Source: a virus
Length of the DNA stretch: 20,129 bases
IMG/VR virus record: IMGVR_UViG_3300045927_000021
Span: 1-20,129 of that record
Strand: one strand, 5' to 3'
The notes under the pieces are model-generated. The model did no database searches. It was not told where the DNA came from and saw nothing but the letters and a program-made list of their open reading frames with translations. Position 1 is the first letter of the stretch. Every line of letters starts with the position of its first letter. Position numbers and translations under genes: made by a program. Shown piece by piece: positions 1,581 through 14,381 of this stretch.

Positions 1581-4577
1581 TCAGAAGTGGAACGGATCGA
1601 TGCCCGTCGGCGACACGCCGATCGTGAACCACGGCGCATCGTCCGCCGATTCGATTGCGGGAACCAGGTAGAGACGGGTCGACCAGACCCCGCCGGCATC
1701 GAACTGGTGCTCGACGCCTTCGACGAAACATTCTTGGGTGAGCTCGGCACCGACGTCGTTCGGGGTGCGGTTCACCTGCACCCGCCAACCTGGTTGCACT
1801 CCGAACACGAACGGCCAGACCGTGGCCGCCGTCTGACGGGTGTGCTGCGGGTAGATCGTCACCTCGGCGAACCGGGTCTGTCGGACGGCGTACCGGTCCA
1901 ACAGGTAGGTGGCGAAGTTGCCTACCCCCTGGTCGTTCGACAGGAGCAGTCCGGCATACGACGCGGTGTGTGTGGTGCGCCGCTGCGAACGGGGGACCGC
2001 CCGCCGTTGCAATACCCCGCCATCGCGGACCGCCACTACCTCGTTGATGATCGTCTCCCGCGAGGCTGGGATGGTGACCACGTCCGAGTACCAGATTGAC
2101 CCGGTATCTGCGATGTCATCGGAGAGAGTCGCTTGTACCGTTGTCGCCGCGGTGTTCTGCAGATCCCAGATGCGGCCTCGGAACGTGACCTTGCCGTCTC
2201 CGGCAGCGAACAGCCGGCCCTGTTCGGCGACGGCGAGCTCTTGAAGGTAGGAGAGCACCGACCCGGCCGGGATGCCGCGGATGTACGACGATCCGTCGTC
2301 GATGTCGACGAGGGCCTCCGGCCAGCCGATGGCGTGCAACACCATCCGAGCTCGGACTCCTGTCTTCTGGGTGCCGAGCCCGACGTGGGAGGCGACGTGA
2401 TGTTGCAGGATCGACTGCGGGTCGAGGTCATGGTCGTAGACGGCGACATGGCCGACCGGCACACCGCGGGGGGCGAGCCGGACACGAACCGAGTTGGCGA
2501 CCACGCCAGCGCTGCCCGGTGAACCGGTCGACGTCGACGACGCCTTCAACTCGCCATCCACCCACACTTGCAACGTCGGCCCTGACGTGAGCCGGCCGAC
2601 GATGTGAACCGGACGGAACGTGTCGTCGCGGGCGACGTCGAGATGGGTGAGCACCGCCGCCGACGACGACGCCAGCACGGTCGCTGCCTTGTACGCCTCC
2701 GCCGCGAAATCGTTGTCGCGGCGCAACCGATCGAGCTCCCGTTCCTGCGCTCTCGCCAAGTCCAACGTGCGGGACGCGTCCCGCCCGGTGGAAGCTTCGA
2801 CCCACGCCCACACTTGCAGGTTGCGGTAGATCCTCGCCGCTTCGACCGCTGCCGCGTTCGCGGTCGCCGCCTTCCGGTAGGCGATCGCCTTCTGATACTT
2901 GGCGAACGCCGCATCCGACGTCGGGACGTCAGAGAACCGGATGCGCCCGATCTCGATGTCGGTCGCCGCCCGCTCCGTCGCCCCGTCCGTCCAATACAAC
3001 GCAAGCGTGGTGACCTCTGCGAAGTTCCCGGCGAGCGGCGCCTCGGAATAGGTGCGGGTGATGCGCGCCACCCACGACGCCAACCCCGACTCGATCTGCA
3101 GGACACGAGCGACGTAGCTCTCCGTCCCCGACCCGGAGTAGTCGGGGAACTCGTTGACGCCGACGTCGACCAGGAACTCGAACGCGGCGATGTCCACGTC
3201 GCCGTCCGGGTGGGTGTGCGTGACGTCGCCGGCCACCCCGGAAAGCGCCGACGACATGTACGGGCCGACCACGCCGCCGTCACCGCCGAACTCGGCGACC
3301 CTCGACGTTCGCGGCCCGGACGGCAGCTCGCCGTAGAAGTCGTTGTCGGAAGCGTCCCTCGTGAACCCGTTCACCGAATCGTCGAGCGGCAGGTACACCA
3401 TCGGGTCGTCTTGCAATACCCGCAGCTCGTACTCTGAACGGGGAGCGGCGGTCTGGGCCAGCACGGAGAAGGCATCCGCCGATTCGAGCGGGGTGGAGAT
3501 CGCCACGTCGGCGGCGCCGCCGACCGTCTGCTGCGGCCACTCCTGAACAAACCCGTAGTGCATCCGATACGTGACAGCGTTGTAGGTGGCCGAGATGCGG
3601 GCCGGGGTGGCCTCGAGCAGCGCACCGAAGTACGGGCCGGCCGCATAGTCCGGGTCGAGGGAGCGGTCTTGGGTGATGTTGTCGATGCGGGCGGTGCCGG
3701 GGTCGAAGGCGACGAGCTCGGACTGGCGGCCCATCCGCATCGTTAGCGACACACCGTCGCAGGTGAGGTCGGTCCACTCGTGGGATTCGGCGAGCGGGTC
3801 CGACTCGTCCAGGGCGGCTTCGATCAACAACCCGACACCGGGGATGACTTCGGTCGCCGTGTTCCCGCCGGTCCCTCCGCCGCCGCCGCCGATCGCGCCG
3901 GTGATCGTCAACGACAGGGCGGAACCGGTGTGCGACCAGCCGCCCCCCGACTCGTAGAAGAACTCGACGTCCCCGTCTGTCGTGTCGGTGCGGATCACGT
4001 CCCGCCAGCGCAGCACCGTCGACACCGATGAGGTAGTGCCGTCGCCGAGGCTGCCGTAGGTGGTGGTCGTGCCGGCGTCGGGCGTGTAGTTCGACGGGAT
4101 CGAATATTCGGACTGGGCGCAGACGTAGATCGTCCAATCGTCGATCGCCACCCCGGTGACCGCGGGGATGATCGGCAGCGCCCCGTTGTCGTCGATGTCC
4201 GTGTCGTTGAACTCGACCGTGCCGTCGACGAAGTAGCAGTCCACCCGCACCACGTCAGCGTTGGACACCGTGGCGGTGACGGCTCCGGTGACGTCGGCGC
4301 CGACGGTCGCCGTGTAGATCGCCGTCAGCGTCTGCCGGTCGGTGTCGTCCGGGTTGGCGTCCTTCGCGATCGTCGACGTGAGCGCGTTCGGCGTGTCGTC
4401 GTAGGTGAGGTTGCCGAGCGTGTCCGTGATCACCGGGTTGCCGAGCGTGGACGCCGAGTCGCCGGCGGCCTTGACAGTGACGATCAGGGTGCCGCCGTTG
4501 ACGAGCCCAGTGAGCGCCGGCGTGGTCGAGGCGGTGCCGAGCGTCGCCCGGCCGGTCAGGTAGGTGAGGGTGGGCAT
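1581..4577 (-). CDS. Large minor tail protein (hub/Dit-Tal-like) with LamG-like insert
   Basis: A 998-aa tail-tip protein. Residues 1-225 are beta-rich and Thr-rich, like an Ig or adhesin module, and end in a Gly-rich linker (230-238). Around residues 280-350 lies the pattern of actinophage minor tail hubs: GRQSELVAFDPGTARIDN, then SLDPDY and GFVQEWP. From about 394 (YLPLDD) a LamG/concanavalin-like jelly roll begins; its last strands are near 655-720 (VHIVGRL, LQVWVDGELK, VGHVAVYDHDL). A charged, Ala-rich helical stretch (about 554-645) interrupts it. The C-terminal 260 residues resemble the Gp37-like hub/Tal region. The ATG at 4577 overlaps the tape measure stop (TGATG). The protein probably forms the tail-tip hub below the tape measure and carries a carbohydrate-binding module. 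Distal-tail assignment is confident; domain limits are estimates. Confidence 0.8.
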   Translation of the reverse strand: MPTLTYLTGRATLGTASTTPALTGLVNGGTLIVTVKAAGDSASTLGNPVITDTLGNLTYDDTPNALTSTIAKDANPDDTDRQTLTAIYTATVGADVTGAVTATVSNADVVRVDCYFVDGTVEFNDTDIDDNGALPIIPAVTGVAIDDWTIYVCAQSEYSIPSNYTPDAGTTTTYGSLGDGTTSSVSTVLRWRDVIRTDTTDGDVEFFYESGGGWSHTGSALSLTITGAIGGGGGGTGGNTATEVIPGVGLLIEAALDESDPLAESHEWTDLTCDGVSLTMRMGRQSELVAFDPGTARIDNITQDRSLDPDYAAGPYFGALLEATPARISATYNAVTYRMHYGFVQEWPQQTVGGAADVAISTPLESADAFSVLAQTAAPRSEYELRVLQDDPMVYLPLDDSVNGFTRDASDNDFYGELPSGPRTSRVAEFGGDGGVVGPYMSSALSGVAGDVTHTHPDGDVDIAAFEFLVDVGVNEFPDYSGSGTESYVARVLQIESGLASWVARITRTYSEAPLAGNFAEVTTLALYWTDGATERAATDIEIGRIRFSDVPTSDAAFAKYQKAIAYRKAATANAAAVEAARIYRNLQVWAWVEASTGRDASRTLDLARAQERELDRLRRDNDFAAEAYKAATVLASSSAAVLTHLDVARDDTFRPVHIVGRLTSGPTLQVWVDGELKASSTSTGSPGSAGVVANSVRVRLAPRGVPVGHVAVYDHDLDPQSILQHHVASHVGLGTQKTGVRARMVLHAIGWPEALVDIDDGSSYIRGIPAGSVLSYLQELAVAEQGRLFAAGDGKVTFRGRIWDLQNTAATTVQATLSDDIADTGSIWYSDVVTIPASRETIINEVVAVRDGGVLQRRAVPRSQRRTTHTASYAGLLLSNDQGVGNFATYLLDRYAVRQTRFAEVTIYPQHTRQTAATVWPFVFGVQPGWRVQVNRTPNDVGAELTQECFVEGVEHQFDAGGVWSTRLYLVPAIESADDAPWFTIGVSPTGIDPFHF

Positions 4578-7000
4578 CAGACCGGGACGCGGCCACCCTG
4601 CCGCCGGTACTTGGCGAGCTCTGCGAGGAACCCACGAACATCCTGGACGCCGTACACGTTGACGACACCGATCGACATGGCGCCGCCATTGCCGTTGCCG
4701 CCCCCGCTGAATCCGCCGAGCGCTCCGAGCCCTGCCGTCTTCCCGCCCTTCTTGATCGCGTCGACCACATCGGCGGACAGCACGAACTCGCCGCCGTGAG
4801 CGATACCGAACGCCGGTTCCCCCTTGGCGCCGGGGATCGGTCCCCCGGCCTGAGTTTCGAAGTCGAGGTCGCTGCGACCCGACACGAACTGCTGCGCCCC
4901 GCCACCAGTCACGCCGACGTTGATCGTCAGGCGAGCCGTCGCCCCGTTCAACTCGATCAGCCGACGCCGGATGTTCTCGATCCGCGCCTCGGTACCGCCA
5001 TCGTTGAGATCGACGGTCGGCCTCGCCACAGTGCCCGCCAGATCGTCGAGCTGAGTCGCCATCCGCAACAGTTCCTCGCGCACCGGCGGAATGGCGTTCG
5101 TAGCGAGGGCCCGGAGGGTGTCGGCCTGGATCTTCGCCGACTCACTTGCACCTTCGGCGCCTTCGCTGATCTTGCCTTGCGACTCGGCCAGGCGGGCGTT
5201 CTCCGCCGCGAGACGCAACGCCGAGTCGATGGCGTCGTCCTGCTGAGCGGCCAGCCCGGCGGCCGCCTCCCGCCCCTCGTCCGTGTCCTGCTTCGCGACC
5301 TCGGTAGCCAACGCGAGCTCGTTCATCGCCGACGCCGTGTCGCGGGCGGCGTCACGCTGACTGAGCTCGGCGTTGAACAGCCCCAAGGTGGCGTTGAGCG
5401 CTTCGTTCGCGGCGTCGGTCTGCCGCTTGTACGCCTCCGCCACCTCGTTCGTCGCGTCGGCGATCTCCGACGTGATCTCGGCGCTGGCCTCCTGCGCGGC
5501 GGCGTACTCGAACGTGGCGACGGTCGCCGCCTGCGTCTCGGTCGTCACCGCTGCCGTGGTGGTCTTGATGATCTCCTGCGCCCTGGTAGCCCGCTCATAC
5601 CCTTCGGTGAGCGGCGAGAGGGCGTTGACGAGGTTCAACGCCTCACGAGCGTTGTCCCCGTAGGTGCCCCGCAACCGTTCGAGCGCGGCGTCGCCGGAGA
5701 GCCGGGCAGCGTTGACCTCCTCGGACACCGCCGCCGCCTCACGCAGAGCGGGGATCTCCTGCCCACGGATCGCCTTTGCTAGATCCTGCGTCGAGATGCC
5801 GAGCTGGTCGGCGAGGTCGAGCGCCTTCGAGTCTGCGAGTTGGCGGGCGATGACGGCCTCGAGCGCGTCGCCCTGTCCGCTCGCTTCCGCTTGGAGCGCC
5901 GCCGTGTAGTCGTCGGTGATCTTCTGGAGCTTCGCCTTCTCGCGGCCGACCAGCGCGTAGTGAACCGCGGCCACGGCGGCGACGCCCCCGGCTGCGGCAC
6001 CGACGACGCCGAGCCCGCCGAGCGAGGTGACGAGCCGACCGATGACCTTCGTGTTGTCTGTCAGAGTGCCGCGCAGCTTGATCGCCGCTCCACCGATGGT
6101 GGACAGCGCCCCCACCGCGGCGGTGCCAGCAACGCCGAACACCAACAGGTTGCCGACCAGCCCGCCGGTCGATTCGTTCAACTTGAGCAGTCCACCGGCG
6201 GCGTCGGCTGCGAACCCGGCAAGCTTCGACATGGCCGGCAACACGGCCTGACCAAGCGACGCGGCGGCGTTCGCGAACTCGGCAGTCGCGGTCTTCTGCT
6301 GGTTGACCGCCGAGTCGGAGGTGCGGACAAAGTCGCCCTGGGCGTCGCCGAGCTGCTTCAAGATGAGCGAGTTCGCGGCAAGCACCTTCTGCTGGCCGGT
6401 GAGAACGCCGGTCACCTTCTCGCCGGTGAGTGCTAGGTACTCGGCCTTGAGCGCCGCGTCGTTGAGGAAGATGCCGAACCTCTTGAGCGGCTCCGATTCG
6501 CCGGCCAGTCCGGACCCGATCGCGTCGAGCGCCTGCTGCACGGGGATGCCCGTGAAGGACGACAGGTCGCCGGCGGCCTGTACCAGCGTCGTCGAGAAGG
6601 TCGCCAACTCCTCGTCAGCCAAACCGGCGGACTTGCCGAACGTCCCGAAGAATGATGCGGCGTCCAGGGCGGCGGTCTTCGAGATGCCGGCGGTGCGGGA
6701 TGCGGCCGCGCCGAAGTCCTCGACCTGGCCGGATGCTTCGCCGAACACCTCCCCGGCTCGTGACACCTGGTCGGCCTGCTCGGCTGCGGACTGGCCGAGC
6801 TTCGCCAACCCGATCGTCGCCACCCCCGCGACGGCGATGGCCTTCGTACCGAACCCGATCAGGTTGTTGGCGAGCTTGTCGGTGCGCTGCTCCGCCTTGG
6901 ACAGGTTCTTGTCCGCCGACGCGCCGACCTTCTCGAACCCCTTCACCGCGTCGCCGACGTTGGCGGTGATCAAGAATTGGAGCTTCTCGGATGCGGCCAT
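4577..7000 (-). CDS. Tail tape measure protein
   Basis: An 807-aa tape measure protein that sets tail length and is threaded through the tail tube. The N-terminal 250 residues carry the conserved phage tape-measure core: SRAGEVFGEASGQVEDFG, then ASFFGTFGKSAG and the LSSFTGIPVQQALDAIGSGL stretch. Two hydrophobic segments (about 281-305 and 328-350) are of the kind associated with membrane passage during DNA entry. Long Ala/Glu/Gln-rich helical repeats fill about 355-660. The C-terminus has Gly-rich stretches (about 760-775) and the end YRRQGGRVPV. The ATG at 7000 overlaps the upstream stop (TGATG). At the usual rule of about 1.5 angstrom per residue the tail would be near 120 nm, which is an inference only. 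Confidence 0.95.
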   Translation of the reverse strand: MAASEKLQFLITANVGDAVKGFEKVGASADKNLSKAEQRTDKLANNLIGFGTKAIAVAGVATIGLAKLGQSAAEQADQVSRAGEVFGEASGQVEDFGAAASRTAGISKTAALDAASFFGTFGKSAGLADEELATFSTTLVQAAGDLSSFTGIPVQQALDAIGSGLAGESEPLKRFGIFLNDAALKAEYLALTGEKVTGVLTGQQKVLAANSLILKQLGDAQGDFVRTSDSAVNQQKTATAEFANAAASLGQAVLPAMSKLAGFAADAAGGLLKLNESTGGLVGNLLVFGVAGTAAVGALSTIGGAAIKLRGTLTDNTKVIGRLVTSLGGLGVVGAAAGGVAAVAAVHYALVGREKAKLQKITDDYTAALQAEASGQGDALEAVIARQLADSKALDLADQLGISTQDLAKAIRGQEIPALREAAAVSEEVNAARLSGDAALERLRGTYGDNAREALNLVNALSPLTEGYERATRAQEIIKTTTAAVTTETQAATVATFEYAAAQEASAEITSEIADATNEVAEAYKRQTDAANEALNATLGLFNAELSQRDAARDTASAMNELALATEVAKQDTDEGREAAAGLAAQQDDAIDSALRLAAENARLAESQGKISEGAEGASESAKIQADTLRALATNAIPPVREELLRMATQLDDLAGTVARPTVDLNDGGTEARIENIRRRLIELNGATARLTINVGVTGGGAQQFVSGRSDLDFETQAGGPIPGAKGEPAFGIAHGGEFVLSADVVDAIKKGGKTAGLGALGGFSGGGNGNGGAMSIGVVNVYGVQDVRGFLAELAKYRRQGGRVPV

Positions 7001-7464
7001 CAGCGGAACGCCCCTAGTCCTGCGTTGAACGTGCCGGTACGAACGATCCTGTTGACCCGCGGGATCGCTGCGGTGGTGCCGGTGCGGAACGGGAACTTGC
7101 CACGGGCACCAGGGTGGTGAGCGACCATCCGAGGTCCGACGCCGGGAATGACGATCGCCCGCTTACGGCGCGGCCGAATCACGTGCGCTGACGTCGGCCG
7201 CTCGACAAGATGCGCCGGACCGTAGGCCCGCACGTTCGCCACCGTCCGAGTCCCACCCTCGAACACCTTGTAACGGACACCGATGCGGGCGTTGCGCCTA
7301 CCCGACAGCCGCCGGTCACCGGTCGCCACGCCCATCGCCGATTCGATGATCCGCTTCGACTCCGCCGCCGCCGCCCCAACCGTCCGCCCCTGCGACTTCT
7401 GCAAGTCGACCGACGCCTTCGTGATCTTGCCGACGAGCTCGGCAGCCGACGACGACGTACCCAT
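7000..7464 (-). CDS. HK97 gp10-like tail/neck protein
   Basis: A 154-aa basic protein resembling the HK97 gp10 (tail completion/neck) family as found in actinophages: a helical N-terminus (about 10-45), then RIGVRYKVF, YGPAHLVERPTSAH, an Arg/Lys-rich IRPRRKRAIVIPG strand and HHPGARGKFPF near the C-terminus. The ATG at 7464 has GGGAG 8 nt upstream. It overlaps the tape measure start by TGATG. In HK97 itself this gene lies between the connector and the tail tube; here it follows the tail chaperones. It is separated from them by a plus-strand gene whose start codon is only 17 bp away. It could be a tail chaperone-linked minor tail protein rather than a true neck protein. Confidence 0.65.
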   Translation of the reverse strand: MGTSSSAAELVGKITKASVDLQKSQGRTVGAAAAESKRIIESAMGVATGDRRLSGRRNARIGVRYKVFEGGTRTVANVRAYGPAHLVERPTSAHVIRPRRKRAIVIPGVGPRMVAHHPGARGKFPFRTGTTAAIPRVNRIVRTGTFNAGLGAFR

Positions 7465-7468
7465 GTGG

Positions 7469-7474
7469 CAGACT
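7469..7474 (+). promoter_or_regulatory. Possible -10 element of the plus-strand DUF4177-like gene
   Basis: CAGACT lies 7 nt before the ATG at 7482, the spacing expected between a -10 hexamer and the first base of a leaderless actinobacterial mRNA. It matches TAnnnT at all but the first position. No clear -35 is visible. The call rests on spacing and on the lack of a ribosome binding site. Confidence 0.3.
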
Positions 7475-7481
7475 CCCGGCG

Positions 7482-7718
7482 ATGATCTGGGCCTACAAGA
7501 CGGTCAAGTGGCACAACCTCATGTACGACCGGCTACAAGACGAGCTACAGCTCCTCGGCGCCGACGGGTGGGAGCTCGTGAGCATCACCAACATGGAGAA
7601 GTCGGTCCTCGGTGGCCTGACCGGCGGTTCGATCGTCGGAGTGCTCAAGCGACCCGCCAGCGACGACGACATGCAAGAGATGCGCCGCATCGTCGAAGCA
7701 CGATCGGTGGCGTACTAG
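7482..7718 (+). CDS. DUF4177-like small protein on the opposite strand
   Basis: A 78-aa protein on the strand opposite to the operon. It has the DUF4177 pattern: an aromatic start (WAYKTVKW), a central DELQLLGADGWELVSI in which the G-x-x-GWELV core is diagnostic, a Gly-rich turn and VLKRP. The family is small, soluble and of unknown function. The gene sits in a 250-bp gap between the tail chaperone stop and the gp10-like gene, with 17 bp between the two divergent start codons. No good Shine-Dalgarno sequence is present on its own strand, but CAGACT lies 7 nt before the ATG, so the mRNA may be leaderless. Its stop overlaps the gpT stop in CTAG. The conserved pattern and the exact fit in the gap argue that it is real and was probably acquired as a moron. 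Confidence 0.78.
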   Translation: MIWAYKTVKWHNLMYDRLQDELQLLGADGWELVSITNMEKSVLGGLTGGSIVGVLKRPASDDDMQEMRRIVEARSVAY

Positions 7719-7732
7719 CGCTCCACCGATCG
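7701..7732. terminator. Hairpin around two converging stop codons
   Basis: CGATCGGTGG (7701-7710) and CCACCGATCG (7723-7732) form a perfect 10-bp stem with a 12-nt loop. The loop contains CTAG (7715-7718), which is the stop codon of both the plus-strand DUF4177-like gene and the minus-strand gpG-T fusion. No T-tract follows on either strand, so this would be a U-less bidirectional terminator or an RNA end-protecting hairpin. The symmetry is seen directly; termination is inferred. Confidence 0.55.
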
Positions 7733-8133
7733 GCGGGCATCCAACAACAGATGCATGTCTCGTAGCGACTGGCGGCGCGTCACGTCCGGCGACCACCCGT
7801 AGAGGGATGCCATCACGATGATCCACCAGTCGAGGGTTCTGCTTTTCCCTCTACAGGCAGCCCATCCTCGTACTCATTCGGCAGGTCATCATCCACGAGC
7901 TCGTACACCCCGATCAGATCCTCGGCCGAGATGTTCGGTTTCGGTGTCGCCCCCACTTCGCGACAGCATCGCTCGTAGACGGCCACCGCGCCGGCAGCGG
8001 ATTTGAGTGGGGTGTATTGCACGTCTCCCCACGTCAGCCCCGCCGCCTTGGCGATGTCTTCCAGCTCGAGAGCAGGAATGGATTGGACGCGAACCGTCTT
8101 GCCTTCGATGATGCAAGCCCATTGCTTGGCCAC
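7715..8133 (-). CDS. Tail assembly chaperone gpG-T fusion made by -1 frameshifting
   Basis: The long product of the tail chaperone locus, about 139 aa. Ribosomes read 97 codons of the gpG frame, slip back one base on GGGAAAA (minus strand, 7849-7843) and continue for 42 codons to the TAG at 7717-7715. The added tail begins SRTLDWWIIVMASLYGWSPD and ends LLLDARRSVER. The Trp-rich start and the following helix are typical of gpT-type extensions in siphovirus chaperones. The two products coat and fold the tape measure protein while the tail tube assembles. The slippery site is in the correct zero-frame phase (G GGA AAA), which makes this call strong without any search. Confidence 0.85.
7813..8133 (-). 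CDS. Tail assembly chaperone gpG
   Basis: The short, unshifted product of the chaperone locus, 106 aa, acting with the fusion protein on the tape measure. It is mixed alpha/beta and ends in an acidic tail (DDDLPNEYEDGLPVEGKAEP). It follows the tail tube gene by 27 nt, the standard siphovirus position. The start is a GTG at 8133, preceded by AGAGG at 10 nt. No ATG is available near the N-terminus. Family identity comes from position, size and the frameshift signal rather than strong sequence motifs. Confidence 0.85.
   Translation of the reverse strand: MAKQWACIIEGKTVRVQSIPALELEDIAKAAGLTWGDVQYTPLKSAAGAVAVYERCCREVGATPKPNISAEDLIGVYELVDDDLPNEYEDGLPVEGKAEPSTGGSS
7843..7849 (-). promoter_or_regulatory. 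-1 ribosomal frameshift slippery heptamer GGGAAAA
   Basis: On the minus strand the sequence reads G GGA AAA in the gpG frame, an exact X XXY YYZ heptamer. After slippage the -1 frame is open for 42 codons and encodes a gpT-like tail, whereas the zero frame ends 27 nt further on. The canonical place of such a signal is exactly here, at the end of the first tail chaperone gene before the tape measure. Confidence 0.88.
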
Positions 8134-8160: not shown

Positions 8161-8562
8161 TCAGCCGACCTTGGCGATCGCCGACGCCGCCGACCACGAA
8201 CCCGAGGTCGTGATCGCGCCACCGGTCGAACCGGACGCCGAGAAGTCGAAGAACGCCGTACCGAACCAGTAGACGCCCGACGCGTTCGACGTGTCCGGGT
8301 ACAGGTAGAACTTGCGGGCCACGCCGTCGAGCGCAGCCGTGTACGTCTGGACGGTGGCGTCATCCCAGAACCCGGCGAAGTCCCCGGACGCGTCCGGCAG
8401 ACCAGCAACGTAGGTCTTGTTGCTATCACCGAACGCCGTGACCTCGAACCGGTCAGAGACCTGGTTGAACGACCATGTGTTGAGGAACGCCACCGGCTCA
8501 GCGGTGCCGCCCGAAGTGAGGTTGATGTAAAGCCGCCCGTTGCGGCCGGCACGTCGAGTCAT
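8161..8562 (-). CDS. Major tail tube protein
   Basis: A 133-aa tail tube subunit forming the stacked hexameric rings of a siphovirus tail. The sequence is almost all beta: GRLYINLTSGG at the start, WSFNQVSDRFEVTAFGDSNKTYVAG, then GDFAGFWDD, which matches the small actinophage tube-protein family (GxFxGFxDD pattern), and a Ser/Gly/Ala-rich C-terminus. The start is ATG at 8562 with GGAAGG about 7 nt upstream. It directly follows a glycosyltransferase gene and precedes the chaperones, and is therefore a likely substrate of that transferase. Confidence 0.88.
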   Translation of the reverse strand: MTRRAGRNGRLYINLTSGGTAEPVAFLNTWSFNQVSDRFEVTAFGDSNKTYVAGLPDASGDFAGFWDDATVQTYTAALDGVARKFYLYPDTSNASGVYWFGTAFFDFSASGSTGGAITTSGSWSAASAIAKVG

Positions 8563-8601: not shown

Positions 8602-9639
8602 TCAGCGCACGGTCTTGGTTGCACCATCCACGAACCGCAGCAGACGGGCCGCTGTGTTGGTGAAGGTGCGGTCGGCCACCACGCCACGGGCGGACACCGC
8701 GGCAGCCTCACGCTCCGAATCGTGGGCGAGCCACCATCGGAGCTGATCTGTGAAATCCCCAGGATCGGTGAACGTCGGCAACATCGGGAACAGCCGGTCA
8801 CCCTCGGGGCGGGGGGAACGAAGGAAGAACGTGCCAGTGGCGGCGAGCTCGACCTCACGGGGCCCGACGGCTACACCGTCGTTGCGGCCACCCTCGTTGA
8901 TCTCCTGGCGGTACAGGTTCGCCGACGCCTTGCACGACCGGTAGATGTCGACCGTCTGCTCATTCGGGCAGCACACCCCGAGGTCGTCGATCAGGTACTT
9001 CACGATCGGCGAGTCATCGACGATCTGCCAGTTCCCGGCGAGCCGCACCTCAAGCCCGTCGAAGTCGCAGTACTCGAAGAACTCGACCCGGCTGGGGAAC
9101 CCGGTACCGACGAACGCGAAATCGGATTCATACTCCGGGACCTTCGGCCCTGGACAGTGCAGGTCAGGGTCGTAGCTGTGCGGGAAGTAGTACGAGCGCG
9201 GGTTGATCTGCCGGTACACGCCGAGGTTGAGCGGGTCGTTGACGACGACCGTGTCGACGTGCTCCGCCACCTGGAACTGCTGCTGGTCTTCGTAGGGGGA
9301 TTCGGTGAACCAGGCGACGATGTGATGCGGGCGGCGTTCGAGGACTTCGAGGATGATCGGCGGGACGAAGAACGTCGAGACGAGCACGACGACGTCGGGC
9401 CAGAACTTGTAGAGCTCGCCGAGGAGCGATTCGGCGGCGAGACGAATGGCGCCATCCTTGTCGAGCGCCTTGCGACGCTCACCGTTGACTTCGAGGTCGA
9501 CGGCGTCGTAGAAGTCGAGGCGGTCCCCGAAGTTGAAGTCGAACACCTGAGCGCCGTTGGCGCGCAGGCCTTTGACGAGCCCGTTGTGAACGTCGGCTAC
9601 GGAGAACCGGGGGCCGGGATGCACGACGAGGACTCTCAC
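8602..9639 (-). CDS. CgeB/YkvP-like glycosyltransferase
   Basis: A 345-aa enzyme resembling CgeB/YkvP-type GT-B transferases. The N-terminal half has a Rossmann-like start (MRVLVVHPGPRFSVADVHNG) and HHIVAWFTESPYED. The C-terminal half contains DFAFVGTGFPSRVEFF, KASANLYRQEI, RNDGVAVGPREVELAATGTFFLRSPRPEG with the family Glu/Gly region, and ends with the usual FTNTAARLLRFV helix. It probably transfers a sugar from a nucleotide donor to a virion protein; the acceptor is unknown. The GTG start at 9639 has a perfect AGGAGG 8 nt upstream. It stands alone between a noncoding gap and the tail tube gene, suggesting tail glycosylation. Confidence 0.82.
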   Translation of the reverse strand: MRVLVVHPGPRFSVADVHNGLVKGLRANGAQVFDFNFGDRLDFYDAVDLEVNGERRKALDKDGAIRLAAESLLGELYKFWPDVVVLVSTFFVPPIILEVLERRPHHIVAWFTESPYEDQQQFQVAEHVDTVVVNDPLNLGVYRQINPRSYYFPHSYDPDLHCPGPKVPEYESDFAFVGTGFPSRVEFFEYCDFDGLEVRLAGNWQIVDDSPIVKYLIDDLGVCCPNEQTVDIYRSCKASANLYRQEINEGGRNDGVAVGPREVELAATGTFFLRSPRPEGDRLFPMLPTFTDPGDFTDQLRWWLAHDSEREAAAVSARGVVADRTFTNTAARLLRFVDGATKTVR

Positions 9640-9663
9640 GGGCCGTGCCTCCTAGAATCATGA

Positions 9664-9768
9664 ACGTCAGGGCCGAGGGGTGACGGGGACGTAGGTCACC
9701 AGGAGCGGCCGGAGGGACCCGATAGGCCGGGCGATGCGGAGGCCGAGAGGGTGTGTAGGCCCTGACGT
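9664..9768. repeat. Inverted repeat enclosing a possible structured RNA
   Basis: ACGTCAGGGCC (9664-9674) and GGCCCTGACGT (9758-9768) are perfect 11-bp inverted arms 83 bases apart. Inside are two smaller stems, GGTGAC/GTCACC (9679-9684 with 9695-9700) and CGGCC/GGCCG (9706-9710 with 9725-9729), so the segment can fold as a multibranched RNA on either strand. It lies in the longest gene-free gap, just upstream of the AGGAGG of the glycosyltransferase-tail tube transcript. It may be a leader RNA, a small RNA or an operator. No known family was recognised. Confidence 0.45.
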
Positions 9769-9773
9769 AGAAT
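9768..9773 (+). promoter_or_regulatory. Candidate -10 element for a leaderless plus-strand gene
   Basis: TAGAAT ends 6 nt before the ATG at 9780, so transcription would begin at or next to the A of the start codon. That is the arrangement of leaderless mRNAs common in Actinomycetota. No convincing -35 hexamer is seen at 16-18 bp upstream. Confidence 0.4.
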
Positions 9774-9779
9774 CAGGAC

Positions 9780-9929
9780 ATGCGCCGCCTATGGCAGAAG
9801 TTGTTTCCTCGCCCTAAGCCGCCACGGACCTACGGAGTCCCTCCCGTAATGCCCGGAGAGGGACGGTGCAGACATCACGGCCCGTACCCCGGATGCTGGG
9901 GCGGCTGCAACTCGCGAATGCCGCGTTAG
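9780..9929 (+). CDS. Short Cys/His peptide on the plus strand, possibly leaderless
   Basis: An ORF of 49 codons running against the operon. The peptide starts with a basic segment (MRRLWQKLFPRPKPPR) and ends with a Cys/His cluster (CRHHGPYPGCWGGC, residues 30-43; C-x-H-H-x5-C-x3-C), which could bind zinc or other metal. It fills the otherwise empty gap downstream of the tail terminator gene, and its TAG overlaps that gene's TAA in TTAG, just as the other plus-strand gene overlaps gpT. There is no strong Shine-Dalgarno sequence, but TAGAAT is 6 nt upstream. No family is recognised. Chance occurrence is possible at this length. Confidence 0.45.
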   Translation: MRRLWQKLFPRPKPPRTYGVPPVMPGEGRCRHHGPYPGCWGGCNSRMPR

Positions 9930-10324
9930 TCGGCGAGCACTTCGAGCGAGATGACCGCCCCGTCGCCGACAAGCGCCTCGTTCACCACCAACCGACCGAA
10001 CTCGCCGACCGTCGTCGCCGTCGCCGACGACACCACCCCATCCAACGTCGAGTCAGCCTGCAGCGCCGACAACGCCGCCGCGATCAGCTCCTGCAACGCC
10101 AACACCGATGACCGGTCGTCGACGTGCGGGACGACGGCTCGCACCGGCAGAAAGATCGTCCCCGAGTCGTCCCCGAAGTAGGTAGCGACGTCGATCGACT
10201 CCGGCCACTCCACGATCAGGCACGGCGCCTCCGGCTTGTCCACCGGATAGCCGTACACCTCCACCCCGGCCACCACCGACAACGCCTCGGCGGTGGCGTC
10301 CATCACCTCCGCCAACGTCGCCAT
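9926..10324 (-). CDS. Probable tail terminator / neck protein
   Basis: A 132-aa protein following the connector gene by a TGATG overlap, the position of tail-terminator or tail-completion proteins. It opens with a helix (TLAEVMDATAEALSVV), then GVEVYGYPVDKPEAPCLIVEWP, whose pattern of an N-terminal helix followed by a strand with a Pro-rich turn recalls lambda gpU/minor tail terminator families. A second helix (VLALQELIAAALSALQAD) and C-terminal strands follow. It would cap the tail tube and join it to the connector. Identity rests on position and fold pattern more than on a signature motif. Its stop overlaps that of a converging plus-strand ORF. Confidence 0.6.
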   Translation of the reverse strand: MATLAEVMDATAEALSVVAGVEVYGYPVDKPEAPCLIVEWPESIDVATYFGDDSGTIFLPVRAVVPHVDDRSSVLALQELIAAALSALQADSTLDGVVSSATATTVGEFGRLVVNEALVGDGAVISLEVLAD

Positions 10325-10962
10325 CAGGCAACCATCAGCCCGCGGCGAGCCGACGCACGACGATAGATGTGCAACAGCTCCTCAACCTTCGGATCTTCAC
10401 GCACCCGGACGAGCAGCCCGTCGGCTCCGTAGCCGGCGACCCCGAACGGGGCATCCTTCCGCTTGTAGATGCCAGCGGCGAGCAGCCGATGTGCCTGCTT
10501 CACGTCGGCCGGGACCGCAGCCCAACCCCACGCCGCGGTCACCTGCAACGTGCGGCGAGTGACAACGCGGAAGCACTTGGAGCCGACGGCAACGATCCGC
10601 CAGTACGGCCAACCTGACGCGCCGTTGGGGCCGACCCCGTTCGCCGGTTCGAGCTCAAAGTCGGTGCCGATCGTCCACGTCGTCTCGAACACGCCGTCGT
10701 CATCCTCGTCGGTCTTGACGACCAGGTCGGTGAGAGTGGAGATGTCATCGACGATCGCCAACGTCGGGTTGGTCGGGGCGTAGGTGCGGGCTGTCGCCGA
10801 CGGGTCGCCGTCGACGTCGACGTCTTGGTCGAAGCGGCGGCCGCAGAACGAGTTGACGTCACGGGTGGCAGCCGCGACCGCATCAGCGATGTTCGTGTCG
10901 TTCTCGGTGCCGCCTATCCCCAGATAGGTCTTGATGGCGTCGGTGGTGTTGTAGTCGGTCAC
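10324..10962 (-). CDS. Head-tail connector (gp6/gp15-like adaptor)
   Basis: A 212-aa head-tail adaptor that would sit under the portal ring. The N-terminal helices (TDAIKTYLGIGG, then ADAVAAATRDVNSFCGRRF) match the gp6-like connector pattern, where an aromatic/Cys-Gly-Arg-x-Phe follows the second helix. A central beta region (DISTLTDLVVKTDEDDDGVF, YWRIVAVGSK) and LQVTAAWGWAAVPADVKQAHRLLAAGIYKRKD near the C-terminus are typical of the family; the WGWxxVPxDVKQA stretch is a strong marker. The GTG start at 10962 has GGAGG 7 nt upstream and lies 4 nt after the methyltransferase stop. Confidence 0.85.
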   Translation of the reverse strand: MTDYNTTDAIKTYLGIGGTENDTNIADAVAAATRDVNSFCGRRFDQDVDVDGDPSATARTYAPTNPTLAIVDDISTLTDLVVKTDEDDDGVFETTWTIGTDFELEPANGVGPNGASGWPYWRIVAVGSKCFRVVTRRTLQVTAAWGWAAVPADVKQAHRLLAAGIYKRKDAPFGVAGYGADGLLVRVREDPKVEELLHIYRRASARRGLMVA

Positions 10963-10966
10963 CGCG

Positions 10967-11512
10967 TCACCTCCGGATCACACCGAGCCCGTAGCAGCCG
11001 GACACGTACTCGCACACCTCGACCCGGTCGGCGAGGTAGTCGTCGATCGCCCGCCGGACCGGGAACGCGGCACAGGTCGGGTCGGCTTCCGGGTGCGGCA
11101 GCTCGGTGTCGTGCAGCAGGACGACACCGCCTGGCTTCACCTTCGGGACGTAGGCGATGAGCTCGGACATCGTCTGGTCGTAGGTGTGCAACGTGTCGAT
11201 GAACACGATGTCGACGTCATCGGGGAGCTCGTCGACGATGCGGAGATCGTCGGCGCGGCGGTAGGTCCAGAACGGCGCCTCGAACCAGGCGGGCGGCACC
11301 GACGGGGGCAGCGGGTCCACGGACCAGAGATGGCCGCCGACCTTCTCGATCGCGGCGAGGAACGCCGACGTCGAGTTGCCTGCCCGCACCCCGAGCTCGA
11401 TCACCTGCGGCTCACGCCGATCGGCGACCTCCTGGTACAGCCGGGGGAGGTGGTCGACGATGTCGGTCCACTCGAGGCATCGCTGCTCGTACTCGTAGGC
11501 GAACACCGTCAT
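10967..11512 (-). CDS. SAM-dependent methyltransferase (class I)
   Basis: A 181-aa Rossmann-fold methyltransferase. Motif I is VIELGVRAGNSTSAFL (37-52), an acidic strand end is at WSVDP (63-67), DIVFIDTLHTYDQ (101-113) is the post-II acidic segment, and the VKPGGVVLLHD loop (125-135) is typical of Methyltransf_24-like enzymes. The ATG at 11512 overlaps the upstream glycosyltransferase stop (ATGA); a longer open frame exists but would overlap that gene. In the sugar cassette it most likely O-methylates a sugar or the glycosylated product. A protein or small-molecule target cannot be excluded. Confidence 0.85.
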   Translation of the reverse strand: MTVFAYEYEQRCLEWTDIVDHLPRLYQEVADRREPQVIELGVRAGNSTSAFLAAIEKVGGHLWSVDPLPPSVPPAWFEAPFWTYRRADDLRIVDELPDDVDIVFIDTLHTYDQTMSELIAYVPKVKPGGVVLLHDTELPHPEADPTCAAFPVRRAIDDYLADRVEVCEYVSGCYGLGVIRR

Positions 11513-12147
11513 CGGTCGCTCGCATGTCCCGAGACGGTGAACCAACGGTTGCGCCACAGATTGCCGGGGATCGGTTCGGGGCGGAGGTCGTACTGGTCGA
11601 GCACCACCGGCAGCGACAACTGATCCTGGTAGGTCATCAGGTGGTTGTGTGCGAACCAGGCGGCACCGAATTGCAGCACGGTCGGCGTGTGCCGGCGAGC
11701 GAACGTCGTGGATGCCCACAACCCGCCGTTCTGCGGCCAGCCACGCGACCGGTACAAGGCGACCTGTTCCTCGAGCGGCTGCCCGACGTACTTGGTCATC
11801 GTCCGCGACACGGCCGCTTCTTCGTAGATGCAGGTCCGGTCAGGATGCCCGAACATCGCCAGGTCGGATTCGGCGAGGCAGTCGTAGAGGACGTCGAAGT
11901 AGTCGCCGCCGGTGAGCTGCACGGACCCGTCGAGCCAGACAGAGATGTCGGCTTGCGGCGGGTGGCACTTCCACCACTTCGCCGCCACTCGCGGATGCTG
12001 GTACGGGAGCGGGTGGTAGCGGACGTCCCAATCATCGGACTTGAGGTCGGGGTCGTCGGTATAGCAGATCCACTCGTCGACGAGCGGATGATCGGGGTGC
12101 GGCTTCAACCAGTCGTAGCCGCCGTAGATGGCGCAGAAGGCGATCAT
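11509..12147 (-). CDS. TOD1/DUF616-type glycosyltransferase
   Basis: A 212-aa GT-A-like enzyme. It starts MIAFCAIYGGYDWLKP and has EWICYTDDPD (25-34), then HPRVAAKWWKCHP (51-63) and SVWLDGSVQL (69-78). The order of YxxYD, YTDD, R-x-x-K-x-x-K and WLDGS matches the TOD1/MUCI70 (DUF616) glycosyltransferase-like domain, where the WLD Asp is taken as the metal/donor-binding residue. I chose the ATG at 12147 because it overlaps the epimerase stop (ATGA). It lies between a sugar epimerase and a methyltransferase, suggesting that it adds the sugar made by its neighbour. Confidence 0.82.
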   Translation of the reverse strand: MIAFCAIYGGYDWLKPHPDHPLVDEWICYTDDPDLKSDDWDVRYHPLPYQHPRVAAKWWKCHPPQADISVWLDGSVQLTGGDYFDVLYDCLAESDLAMFGHPDRTCIYEEAAVSRTMTKYVGQPLEEQVALYRSRGWPQNGGLWASTTFARRHTPTVLQFGAAWFAHNHLMTYQDQLSLPVVLDQYDLRPEPIPGNLWRNRWFTVSGHASDR

Positions 12148-12977
12148 GCTGCCATCACCCGCAGCTCGCGGCGGTACCAGTCGATCGTCGGCAACAGCCC
12201 GTACGGCCAATGCGTCAACGCCTTCGGCCACTCGGCCACCACACAGGCGCCCTCCGGTTCACCAAGGCGCATCGGGAGATGCACGACGTCCGAGTTGGAG
12301 TCGGTTGCCTTGATGACATCCCACGCCGCCTGGTTCACCGTCGTCGCCACGCCGGTGCCTGCCTCCCGCACCCTGCCCCACGGACCGCCCAGTCCTTCGA
12401 CGAGTTGACGGGCGACGTCCTCGACGTGGACGAGGTCGATCTGCTGTTCGCCGCTGCCCCACACTTCAAGCGGCATCCCCGTCAGGGCTCGGCAGATGAA
12501 CGACGGAATGATCTTGCGGACCCTGGCGGTGCCGTGCGGCGGCGGGATCTTCTGACCGGGCCCGTAAGCGTGAAACGCTCGGACGACGGTGATCTTCTCG
12601 CCCCGCCACTGAGCACGAGCGAGACCGAGCTCCTCGGCGGCCGCCTTTGTGATGGCGTACGGGTTCGGCTGACCCTTGTGGCCGGTGCCGATCTGCACCA
12701 CCGGGATACCCAACGCGGCAGCGGTGTCGTAGACGTTGACGGCGCCTTCGATGTTCACCCGCACAGCACGGGCCTCGGCGCCGATCATCTCCTCGGTGCC
12801 GAGCTGGCCGGCGAGGTTGATGATCCCGTCGCACGGCTCCGCCACGCCTCGCAGCACCTTGGGGTCGGTGATGTCGTGGAGTCCGTCGAACAGGACGGCG
12901 GCATGGCCGCGCTGTCTGAGCTCGGCGATGACGTGCCGGCCGATGAACCCGGCGCCGCCGGTGACGAGGACCCTCAT
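12144..12977 (-). CDS. NAD-dependent nucleotide-sugar epimerase/dehydratase
   Basis: A 277-aa extended short-chain dehydrogenase. The NAD-binding TGGAGFIG is at residues 6-13, GIINLAGQLG at 51-60, the catalytic YxxxK at Tyr107-Lys111 (NPYAITK) and RAFHAYGPGQ at 133-142, the usual sugar-epimerase YGPGQ signature. DLVHVEDVARQLV is the standard C-terminal segment. The position normally holding Ser upstream of Tyr reads IGTGHK, so Thr may replace it. It would convert an NDP-sugar for use by the adjacent transferases. The ATG at 12977 overlaps the stop of the preceding small gene (ATGA). The exact substrate cannot be told from sequence. Confidence 0.9.
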   Translation of the reverse strand: MRVLVTGGAGFIGRHVIAELRQRGHAAVLFDGLHDITDPKVLRGVAEPCDGIINLAGQLGTEEMIGAEARAVRVNIEGAVNVYDTAAALGIPVVQIGTGHKGQPNPYAITKAAAEELGLARAQWRGEKITVVRAFHAYGPGQKIPPPHGTARVRKIIPSFICRALTGMPLEVWGSGEQQIDLVHVEDVARQLVEGLGGPWGRVREAGTGVATTVNQAAWDVIKATDSNSDVVHLPMRLGEPEGACVVAEWPKALTHWPYGLLPTIDWYRRELRVMAA

Positions 12978-13150
12978 GACTGCCGACCCGCCGCCTTGAA
13001 CGCCGCCAGGGCATAGGCGTCGATCTCGTCACGCCATTCTTCGAAATCCTCGGTCCAGTTGTACCGGTCCCATCCTCGCTGATTCAGGAACTCGCGTCGG
13101 AGCGCCCTGCGAATAGCAAGGAACTTTGGATCATCCGTCTTCATGGACAT
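12974..13150 (-). CDS. Small hypothetical protein in the sugar cassette
   Basis: A 58-aa charged, helical peptide with many aromatics (RGWDRYNWTEDFEEWRDEID), no membrane segment and no recognised family. GGGAG lies 9 nt before the ATG at 13150, which makes that start better than the GTG at 13165. It is coupled by ATGA to the epimerase, so the two are made together. It could be a small partner of the sugar enzymes, but nothing in the sequence shows this. Confidence 0.65.
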   Translation of the reverse strand: MSMKTDDPKFLAIRRALRREFLNQRGWDRYNWTEDFEEWRDEIDAYALAAFKAAGRQS

Positions 13151-13176
13151 CTTGCGTTCTCCCACGGGCTAGAGAA

Positions 13177-13221
13177 CGCCTGTGCCCCCAACCGGCCCGT
13201 GAAGCGGCAGGGGCACAGGCG
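13177..13221. terminator. 12-bp perfect hairpin between two small genes
   Basis: CGCCTGTGCCCC (13177-13188) pairs exactly with GGGGCACAGGCG (13210-13221) across a 21-nt loop. It fills most of the gap between the 53-aa gene and the 58-aa gene. On the minus strand it is followed by TTCTCT, a poor U-tract. It may be an attenuator or terminator that splits capsid expression from the sugar cassette, or an mRNA processing or stability element. Confidence 0.6.
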
Positions 13222-13230
13222 AACGTCGAA

Positions 13231-13392
13231 CTACTTGTCTGCCGCCTTCTTCTTCGCTGTCGGCTCCACGATCGCCAACGCCTCGAAGAACTCGGGGATC
13301 ACCTGCGGATCACCCTCGGCGAGGATCGTCCCAGCAGGAACGAACGTGTCGCCCCGCCAATGAGCGACTGTGCAGCGCATCATGGTTGCCAT
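13231..13392 (-). CDS. Small capsid-region protein
   Basis: A 53-aa protein: MATMMRCTVAHWRGDTFVPA, then GTILAEGDP, an acidic/aliphatic helix and a Lys/Ala-rich end. The pattern of a short strand, F-x-P-A-G-T and a D/P turn resembles small proteins often encoded just after the major capsid gene in actinophages, which are of unknown role (possible decoration or head-closure). GAAGGAG lies 7 nt before the ATG at 13392, which decides the start over the ATGs at 13383 and 13380. It overlaps the end of the glycosyltransferase by 13 bp. Confidence 0.65.
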   Translation of the reverse strand: MATMMRCTVAHWRGDTFVPAGTILAEGDPQVIPEFFEALAIVEPTAKKKAADK

Positions 13393-14381
13393 TTCGCGAC
13401 TCCTTCGTACGCGTCCCGCCAGAGCTTCCAACCGGTTTGGATCGTCCACTGACGGGCGATCTCCCGCCCCTTCGCACCCATCTCGGTACGCATCGCCTCG
13501 TCGTTCACCAGATCGTTGAGACGTGACCGCCACTCGGCCTCGGTGCGCACCAGGAACCCGGACACCCCGTCGACGACCATGTCGCGGTAGGCGGGCCGGT
13601 CAGAGGCGATGACCGGGATGCCGAGCGCCATGTATTCGAGCGCCTTGATCCACGACTTCGACCGGTTGAACACCGTGTCCGCCAACGGGGCGAGCCCGAT
13701 GTCGAAGTCGATCGCCTTGAAGTAGGACCAAGTGTCCTCACGCCAAGGCGTGAACCGGCACGCCATCTTCAACAACGGCGAGTAGTCGGTGCCGCAGAAG
13801 TGGAAGTCGATCGTCGGGTTCGCCTCGAGCAGCTCACGGACCGGGTCGGCGGCTTCCATCCAGTCGATGAGATGCGACATGCCGCCAGCCCAACCGACCG
13901 TCAACCGGTCACGGCGGGGCCGTTCGAGGAACAGCATGTCACCGTCGATGTGGTTGGGGATGACGACCACGTTCGAGTTGAGCGGCCGCATCTGCTCGGC
14001 CAGCGGTTCGGTCGACACGGTGACCAGGTCGGAGATCGACACGTTGTGGCAGAAGGTGCGTCGGATATCCTCGTCATGCCACAGCGCCAACCCGGACGAG
14101 TTGTCGGGGTGGAGCACGTCGTCGTCGTTCTCGTAGACGAGCTTCGTCTTCGTCTTCCACCCGTCCCACAAGGCTTGACCTTCGGGGCCGATGAAACGCT
14201 GCCCGACGATCATGTCCAGGTCAGCGGCCTGGTCGAGATCCGGTGTGAACCGGGTACCCGGCTGCGGCAGGGCGATGCGATGCTCGGTGCCGCGGGCGAG
14301 GTGTTTGAACGGGAGGTAGAACCGGTAGTAGCCGGAACCGTCGGCTTGATGGGGGTAGCCGAAGATCGTGAGCGGTTGCAC
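13380..14381 (-). CDS. GT-B glycosyltransferase (group 1/GT4-like)
   Basis: A 333-aa GT-B enzyme. The N-domain has FGYPHQADGSGYYRFYLPF (7-25), the Gly-rich acceptor/donor loop, and KLVYENDDDVLHP. The linker VVVIPNHID (138-146) is the usual start of the donor domain, followed by LTVGWAGGMSHLIDW and the donor site DIGLAPLADTVFNRSKSWIK with ALEYMALGIPVIAS (247-260), where Glu249 matches the conserved Glu of the GT4 E-x7-E region. The GTG at 14381 is preceded by AAGGGA at about 8 nt. It is the first gene of the sugar cassette, directly after the major capsid gene, so the capsid is a likely target. Confidence 0.9.
   Translation of the reverse strand: MQPLTIFGYPHQADGSGYYRFYLPFKHLARGTEHRIALPQPGTRFTPDLDQAADLDMIVGQRFIGPEGQALWDGWKTKTKLVYENDDDVLHPDNSSGLALWHDEDIRRTFCHNVSISDLVTVSTEPLAEQMRPLNSNVVVIPNHIDGDMLFLERPRRDRLTVGWAGGMSHLIDWMEAADPVRELLEANPTIDFHFCGTDYSPLLKMACRFTPWREDTWSYFKAIDFDIGLAPLADTVFNRSKSWIKALEYMALGIPVIASDRPAYRDMVVDGVSGFLVRTEAEWRSRLNDLVNDEAMRTEMGAKGREIARQWTIQTGWKLWRDAYEGVAKWQP

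Follow-up and report, generated by a model that had tools for sequence, protein, structure and literature searches.

In the tail operon of the phage studied here, a small gene runs in the direction opposite to that of its neighbors, which raises the question of whether it is a component of the tail module that happens to be encoded backwards or an accessory gene inserted at the junction between the tail assembly chaperone and the tape measure genes. The stretch of DNA that was analyzed (20,129 nucleotides, referred to here as the window) belongs to a longer sequence: in reverse orientation it equals positions 1-20129 of the 45,832-bp contig IMGVR_UViG_3300049733_000161, and represents the end of that contig. 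The remainder of the contig encodes a tyrosine integrase (PF00589, E 1.4e-26) and two Cro/C1-type HTH proteins, and the presence of these genes indicates that the phage is probably temperate. Its major capsid protein is distantly similar to those of Gordonia, Mycobacterium and Rhodococcus phages, and its tape measure protein to those of Arthrobacter, Microbacterium and Gordonia phages. A set of sugar-modification genes, possibly involved in virion glycosylation, occupies the minus strand between the major tail protein and the major capsid genes (8602-14381).

The reading frame at 7482-7718 on the plus strand is a real gene and encodes a member of the DUF4177 family, which occurs in both bacteria and phages. 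The earlier note on this DNA had recognized a 78-residue product with a DUF4177 core and had proposed that it be compared with the family profile; both the frame and the core residues (W/F-x-Y, G-x-[DN]GW[EQ]LV and the K-R-P end) are present in alignments, and the Pfam search yielded a match to PF13783 with 30.1 bits (E 5.9e-7), above the curated cut-off of 25, while a search against PHROGs gave no match above noise. The GC content at the three codon positions (0.62, 0.37 and 0.85) resembles that of other genes of the phage, and the codon-usage score per codon is +0.44 in the plus frame, the five other frames ranging from -0.08 to -1.12. The Pfam match and the codon bias rule out a chance open reading frame, and coding on the minus strand was discarded since each of its three frames is interrupted by two to four stops across the interval.

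By inspection, the product appears to be a small soluble protein that carries neither a hydrophobic N-terminal segment nor a lipobox. An AlphaFold2 model, generated from an alignment of 25 sequences, predicts a compact globular fold with a beta-alpha-beta-beta-alpha arrangement and a mean pLDDT of 85.8. Viral proteins that match this model are annotated as DUF4177 or DUF1737, with weaker matches to proteins annotated as Cse60; no related solved structure was identified by sequence, and a Foldseek search of the PDB gave no match below E 0.001. The structural matches also include, over 59 columns, BFVD entry A0A8S5PW72, a 140-residue phage protein from outside the window that is named HTH cro/C1-type and whose predicted structure makes it a possible DUF4177-HTH fusion.

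The features that surround the gene are listed in Table 1. As had been claimed, the gene opposes the structural operon and fills a gap of exactly 250 bp (7465-7714). At its 3' end it meets the chaperone gene in a convergent arrangement in which the stop codon of the frameshift product (7715-7717) and that of the DUF4177 gene (7716-7718) overlap. At its 5' end it faces a gene that had been labeled gp10-like; this label could not be confirmed, since the encoded protein displays neither a match to HK97-gp10 nor similarity to a Pfam-supported gp10-like protein that is likewise placed in another contig. The latter (L107:3909-4341; PF04883, at the cut-off) is encoded on the sense strand between the chaperone and the tape measure, which indicates that this junction also takes sense insertions.

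Table 1. Coordinates, in the window, of the DUF4177 gene and of features of the tail and sugar-modification regions.
Feature	Positions	Strand	Remarks
Tape measure protein gene	4577-7000	-	807 aa; PHROG 1535, E 2.9e-15
Gene called gp10-like in the earlier note	7000-7464	-	154 aa; divergent from the DUF4177 gene
DUF4177 gene	7482-7718	+	78 aa; PF13783 match, codon bias, AlphaFold2 model
Perfect inverted repeat	7701-7732		10 bp, 12-nt loop; centered on the overlapping convergent stops; candidate bidirectional terminator
Tail assembly chaperone, -1 frameshift product (gpGT)	7715-8133	-	conceptual frameshift translation; stop overlaps that of DUF4177
Tail assembly chaperone, unshifted form (gpG)	7813-8133	-	106-aa ORF that immediately follows the major tail protein gene; role assigned from its position and the frameshift
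Slippery heptamer GGGAAAA	7843-7849	-	chaperone -1 frameshift site
Major tail protein gene	8161-8562	-	PHROG 10528, E 1.9e-10
Glyco_trans_1_2 protein	8602-9639	-	tail-proximal; common to L033
Methyltransferase	10967-11719	-	sugar-modification set
TOD1/MUCI70 glycosyltransferase-like	11509-12231	-	sugar-modification set
NAD epimerase	12144-12977	-	sugar-modification set
Group 1 glycosyltransferase	13380-14381	-	sugar-modification set

The repeat that spans the convergent stops is the longest perfect inverted repeat in the window when loops of up to 20 nt are allowed, and its RNA fold z is -4.05. Since chance alone would give approximately 0.8 repeats of such size in 20 kb of resampled sequence, it is only the position of the repeat that is telling. 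The hairpin carries no T tract; an 11-bp repeat is located at the same point in Microbacterium phage Bernstein, and no comparable repeat was found in L033, a second metagenomic phage with the same layout. A search for a sigma-70 consensus promoter of the DUF4177 gene gave no match, and because its start lies 17 nt from that of the divergent gene, any promoter would most likely be within the latter. By inspection, no clear Shine-Dalgarno sequence precedes the DUF4177 gene, and a GGGAG element precedes the start of the divergent gene. An Rfam scan of the window gave no RNA match.

If the gene were a fixed part of this type of tail, it should accompany the tape measure in related phages. This idea is not supported: DUF4177 was absent from the examined flanks of the tape measure genes in all 80 metagenomic relatives sampled. 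The tape measure start was readable in 78 of them, and nearly all of these have a closed junction, with the chaperone frame ending within about 15 nt of that start or overlapping it. In one relative, G002 (IMGVR_UViG_3300025936_000416), the tape measure shares 43% identity with that of the window in the N-terminal region, and the junction is closed, the chaperone frame overlapping the tape measure start; this phage carries the closest phage DUF4177 that was found (42% identity over 59 residues), outside the tail operon, in antisense orientation just 3' of the integrase gene. A gene of this kind is therefore found in the lysogeny module of one phage and in the tail-operon slot of the other. L033, in turn, carries an antisense DUF4177 gene before the tape measure, with the order glycosyltransferase, major tail protein, DUF4177 and tape measure as in the window and 30-37% identity in the four comparable genes. 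The comparison of related junctions with and without the gene, which the earlier note had proposed, therefore finds DUF4177 between these two genes in some related genomes and not in others, as is expected of a moron.

Among 25 IMG/VR loci that encode DUF4177, two were recognized as antisense to a tail operon, namely the window's own contig and L033, and most of the others lie elsewhere. In two other phage contigs, DUF4177 genes adjoin genes that appear portal-like by eye (L031:6215-6379, antisense, and L191:90-440, on the same strand as its neighbors). A consensus DUF4177 query against the phage collection gave no match. A common origin of the DUF4177 genes of the window and L033 was also considered; the tree of these short proteins is poorly resolved, and in it neither of the two is nearer to the other than to bacterial members.

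Cultured phages reveal that the position itself is reused. The statement that late tail operons are nearly always one-directional proved too strong, since five of 13 cultured tape-measure relatives carry an antisense gene at this very junction, between the frameshifted chaperone and the tape measure; these records were chosen among tape-measure matches so as to span different phage groups, and since they were not sampled independently the proportion is not an estimate of frequency. The five carriers are Bernstein and Franklin22 (Microbacterium, Armstrongvirus) and BatStarr, Dolores and Finkle (Gordonia). Their genes resemble that of the window in being small, antisense, placed between chaperone and tape measure, and associated with homologous tape measures, but none encodes DUF4177: they form two unrelated groups, one of which, that of Gordonia, begins with lipoprotein-like signal sequences by inspection. 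The Armstrongvirus phages (Microbacterium cluster EB) with an antisense slot gene have been listed as lytic (PMC7302621). Within an incomplete coverage of the literature, no statement describing a reverse slot before the tape measure gene was found.

These observations support the reading, to which we assign a probability of roughly three in four, that the DUF4177 gene is a reverse-strand accessory moron that was inserted into a probably temperate phage where its chaperone and tape measure genes meet. The suggestion of a self-contained moron is supported by the gene's own strand, the hairpin at the convergent stops, the closed junction and integrase-side gene of G002, the unrelated genes that fill the slot in related phages, and the precedent of HK97 gp15. 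The shared gene order of the window and L033 could nonetheless mean that the gene is old and fixed and not a mobile moron, and the DUF4177 protein could be a long-resident tail-module component that takes part in tail assembly or in chaperone/tape-measure control. The conservation of the order from glycosyltransferase through major tail protein, chaperone and antisense DUF4177 to tape measure, with 30-37% identity in the comparable genes, together with the presence of DUF4177 at the same place in Halobacterium virus PhiH1, favors such a role; however, the absence of DUF4177 near the junction in the 80 sampled relatives, its location beside the integrase in G002, the unrelated proteins that fill the slot elsewhere, and the fact that the window and L033 proteins are mutually no closer than to bacterial ones make it highly unlikely. 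An antisense regulator, in which the plus-strand transcript and not the protein would be the active product and would reduce chaperone or frameshift expression by extending into the chaperone gene, appears extremely unlikely: the tail-to-tail arrangement with overlapping stops and the overlap of the Finkle, BatStarr and Dolores slot genes with the chaperone end are consistent with it, but the protein frame is clearly conserved and a strong hairpin lies where read-through must pass.

A special case of the moron reading is that of superinfection exclusion or tail interference, in which a prophage-made product would interfere with the tape measure or the assembly of the tails of incoming phages. 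HK97 gp15 occupies this slot as well, changes in the tape measure or tail overcome the exclusion exerted by gp15 and by TP-J34 Ltp (PMC10883804), the 83-residue prophage protein Tab has the tape measure as its target (PMC10884400), and the Gordonia slot proteins carry the lipoprotein-like signals mentioned above. By inspection, however, the DUF4177 protein lacks a membrane or lipoprotein signal, and with it the type of anchoring displayed by gp15 and Ltp, and position is the one link between it and these systems; we consider the proposal unlikely. A broader version would make the junction before the tape measure a general reverse-strand slot, in use in actinophages and archaeal viruses alike, whose genes target the tape measure or the tail assembly of competing phages, with the DUF4177 protein as a cytoplasmic member; it is decidedly unlikely in our estimation.

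If the gene is indeed an accessory moron, it would be transcribed separately from the late operon, from a promoter within or close to the 5' end of the divergent gene, and the hairpin at 7701-7732 would end its transcript and shield the chaperone message. The protein would then act in the lysogen or early in infection, the stages at which the earlier note had suggested its expression, and not in the assembly of virions. An effect on competing phages or on host physiology, suggested by analogy with other slot morons, would be the least certain step. Published observations on members of the family are few: a 66-residue protein of Clostridium tyrobutyricum is antibacterial when recombinant (PMC11322243), YjzH of B. 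subtilis appears in a table of unknown RNA-binding proteins (PMC12456014), and a Streptomyces member is syntenic with Crp- and WhiB-type regulators (PMC13118837); none of these fixes the role of the phage protein. The organization of the gene as a separable cassette, together with a relative that carries its gene beside the integrase, makes it a clean target for deletion and expression. What makes the finding interesting is that a reverse-strand slot ahead of the tape measure gene recurs; antisense genes at this junction in several lineages suggest a predictable place for prophage-expressed accessory genes, possibly with anti-phage activity.

Besides the slot genes of the Gordonia and Microbacterium phages and the DUF4177 gene of G002, two described systems come close to this arrangement. 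In PhiH1, PhiH1_095 (MK002701; PMC6210493) is, as in the window, a DUF4177 gene that opposes the tail operon, already annotated and above the Pfam cut-off, and it directly precedes the tape measure gene; nevertheless, PhiH1 is an archaeal contractile-tailed virus, its protein has 57 residues and a sequence that is not closely related, and no extra gene separates it from the tape measure. Among relatives of PhiH1, the same place is taken by a sense gene in PhiCh1 and by a small sense gene in ChaoS9. HK97 gp15, like the window gene, is situated in the interval from the frameshifted chaperone pair to the tape measure, and is annotated as a moron product with an annotated terminator after it, but it is encoded on the operon strand and is a predicted membrane protein whose exclusion function has been tested (PMC10883804). 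On the favored reading, the DUF4177 gene is one more moron, and not a new kind of system.
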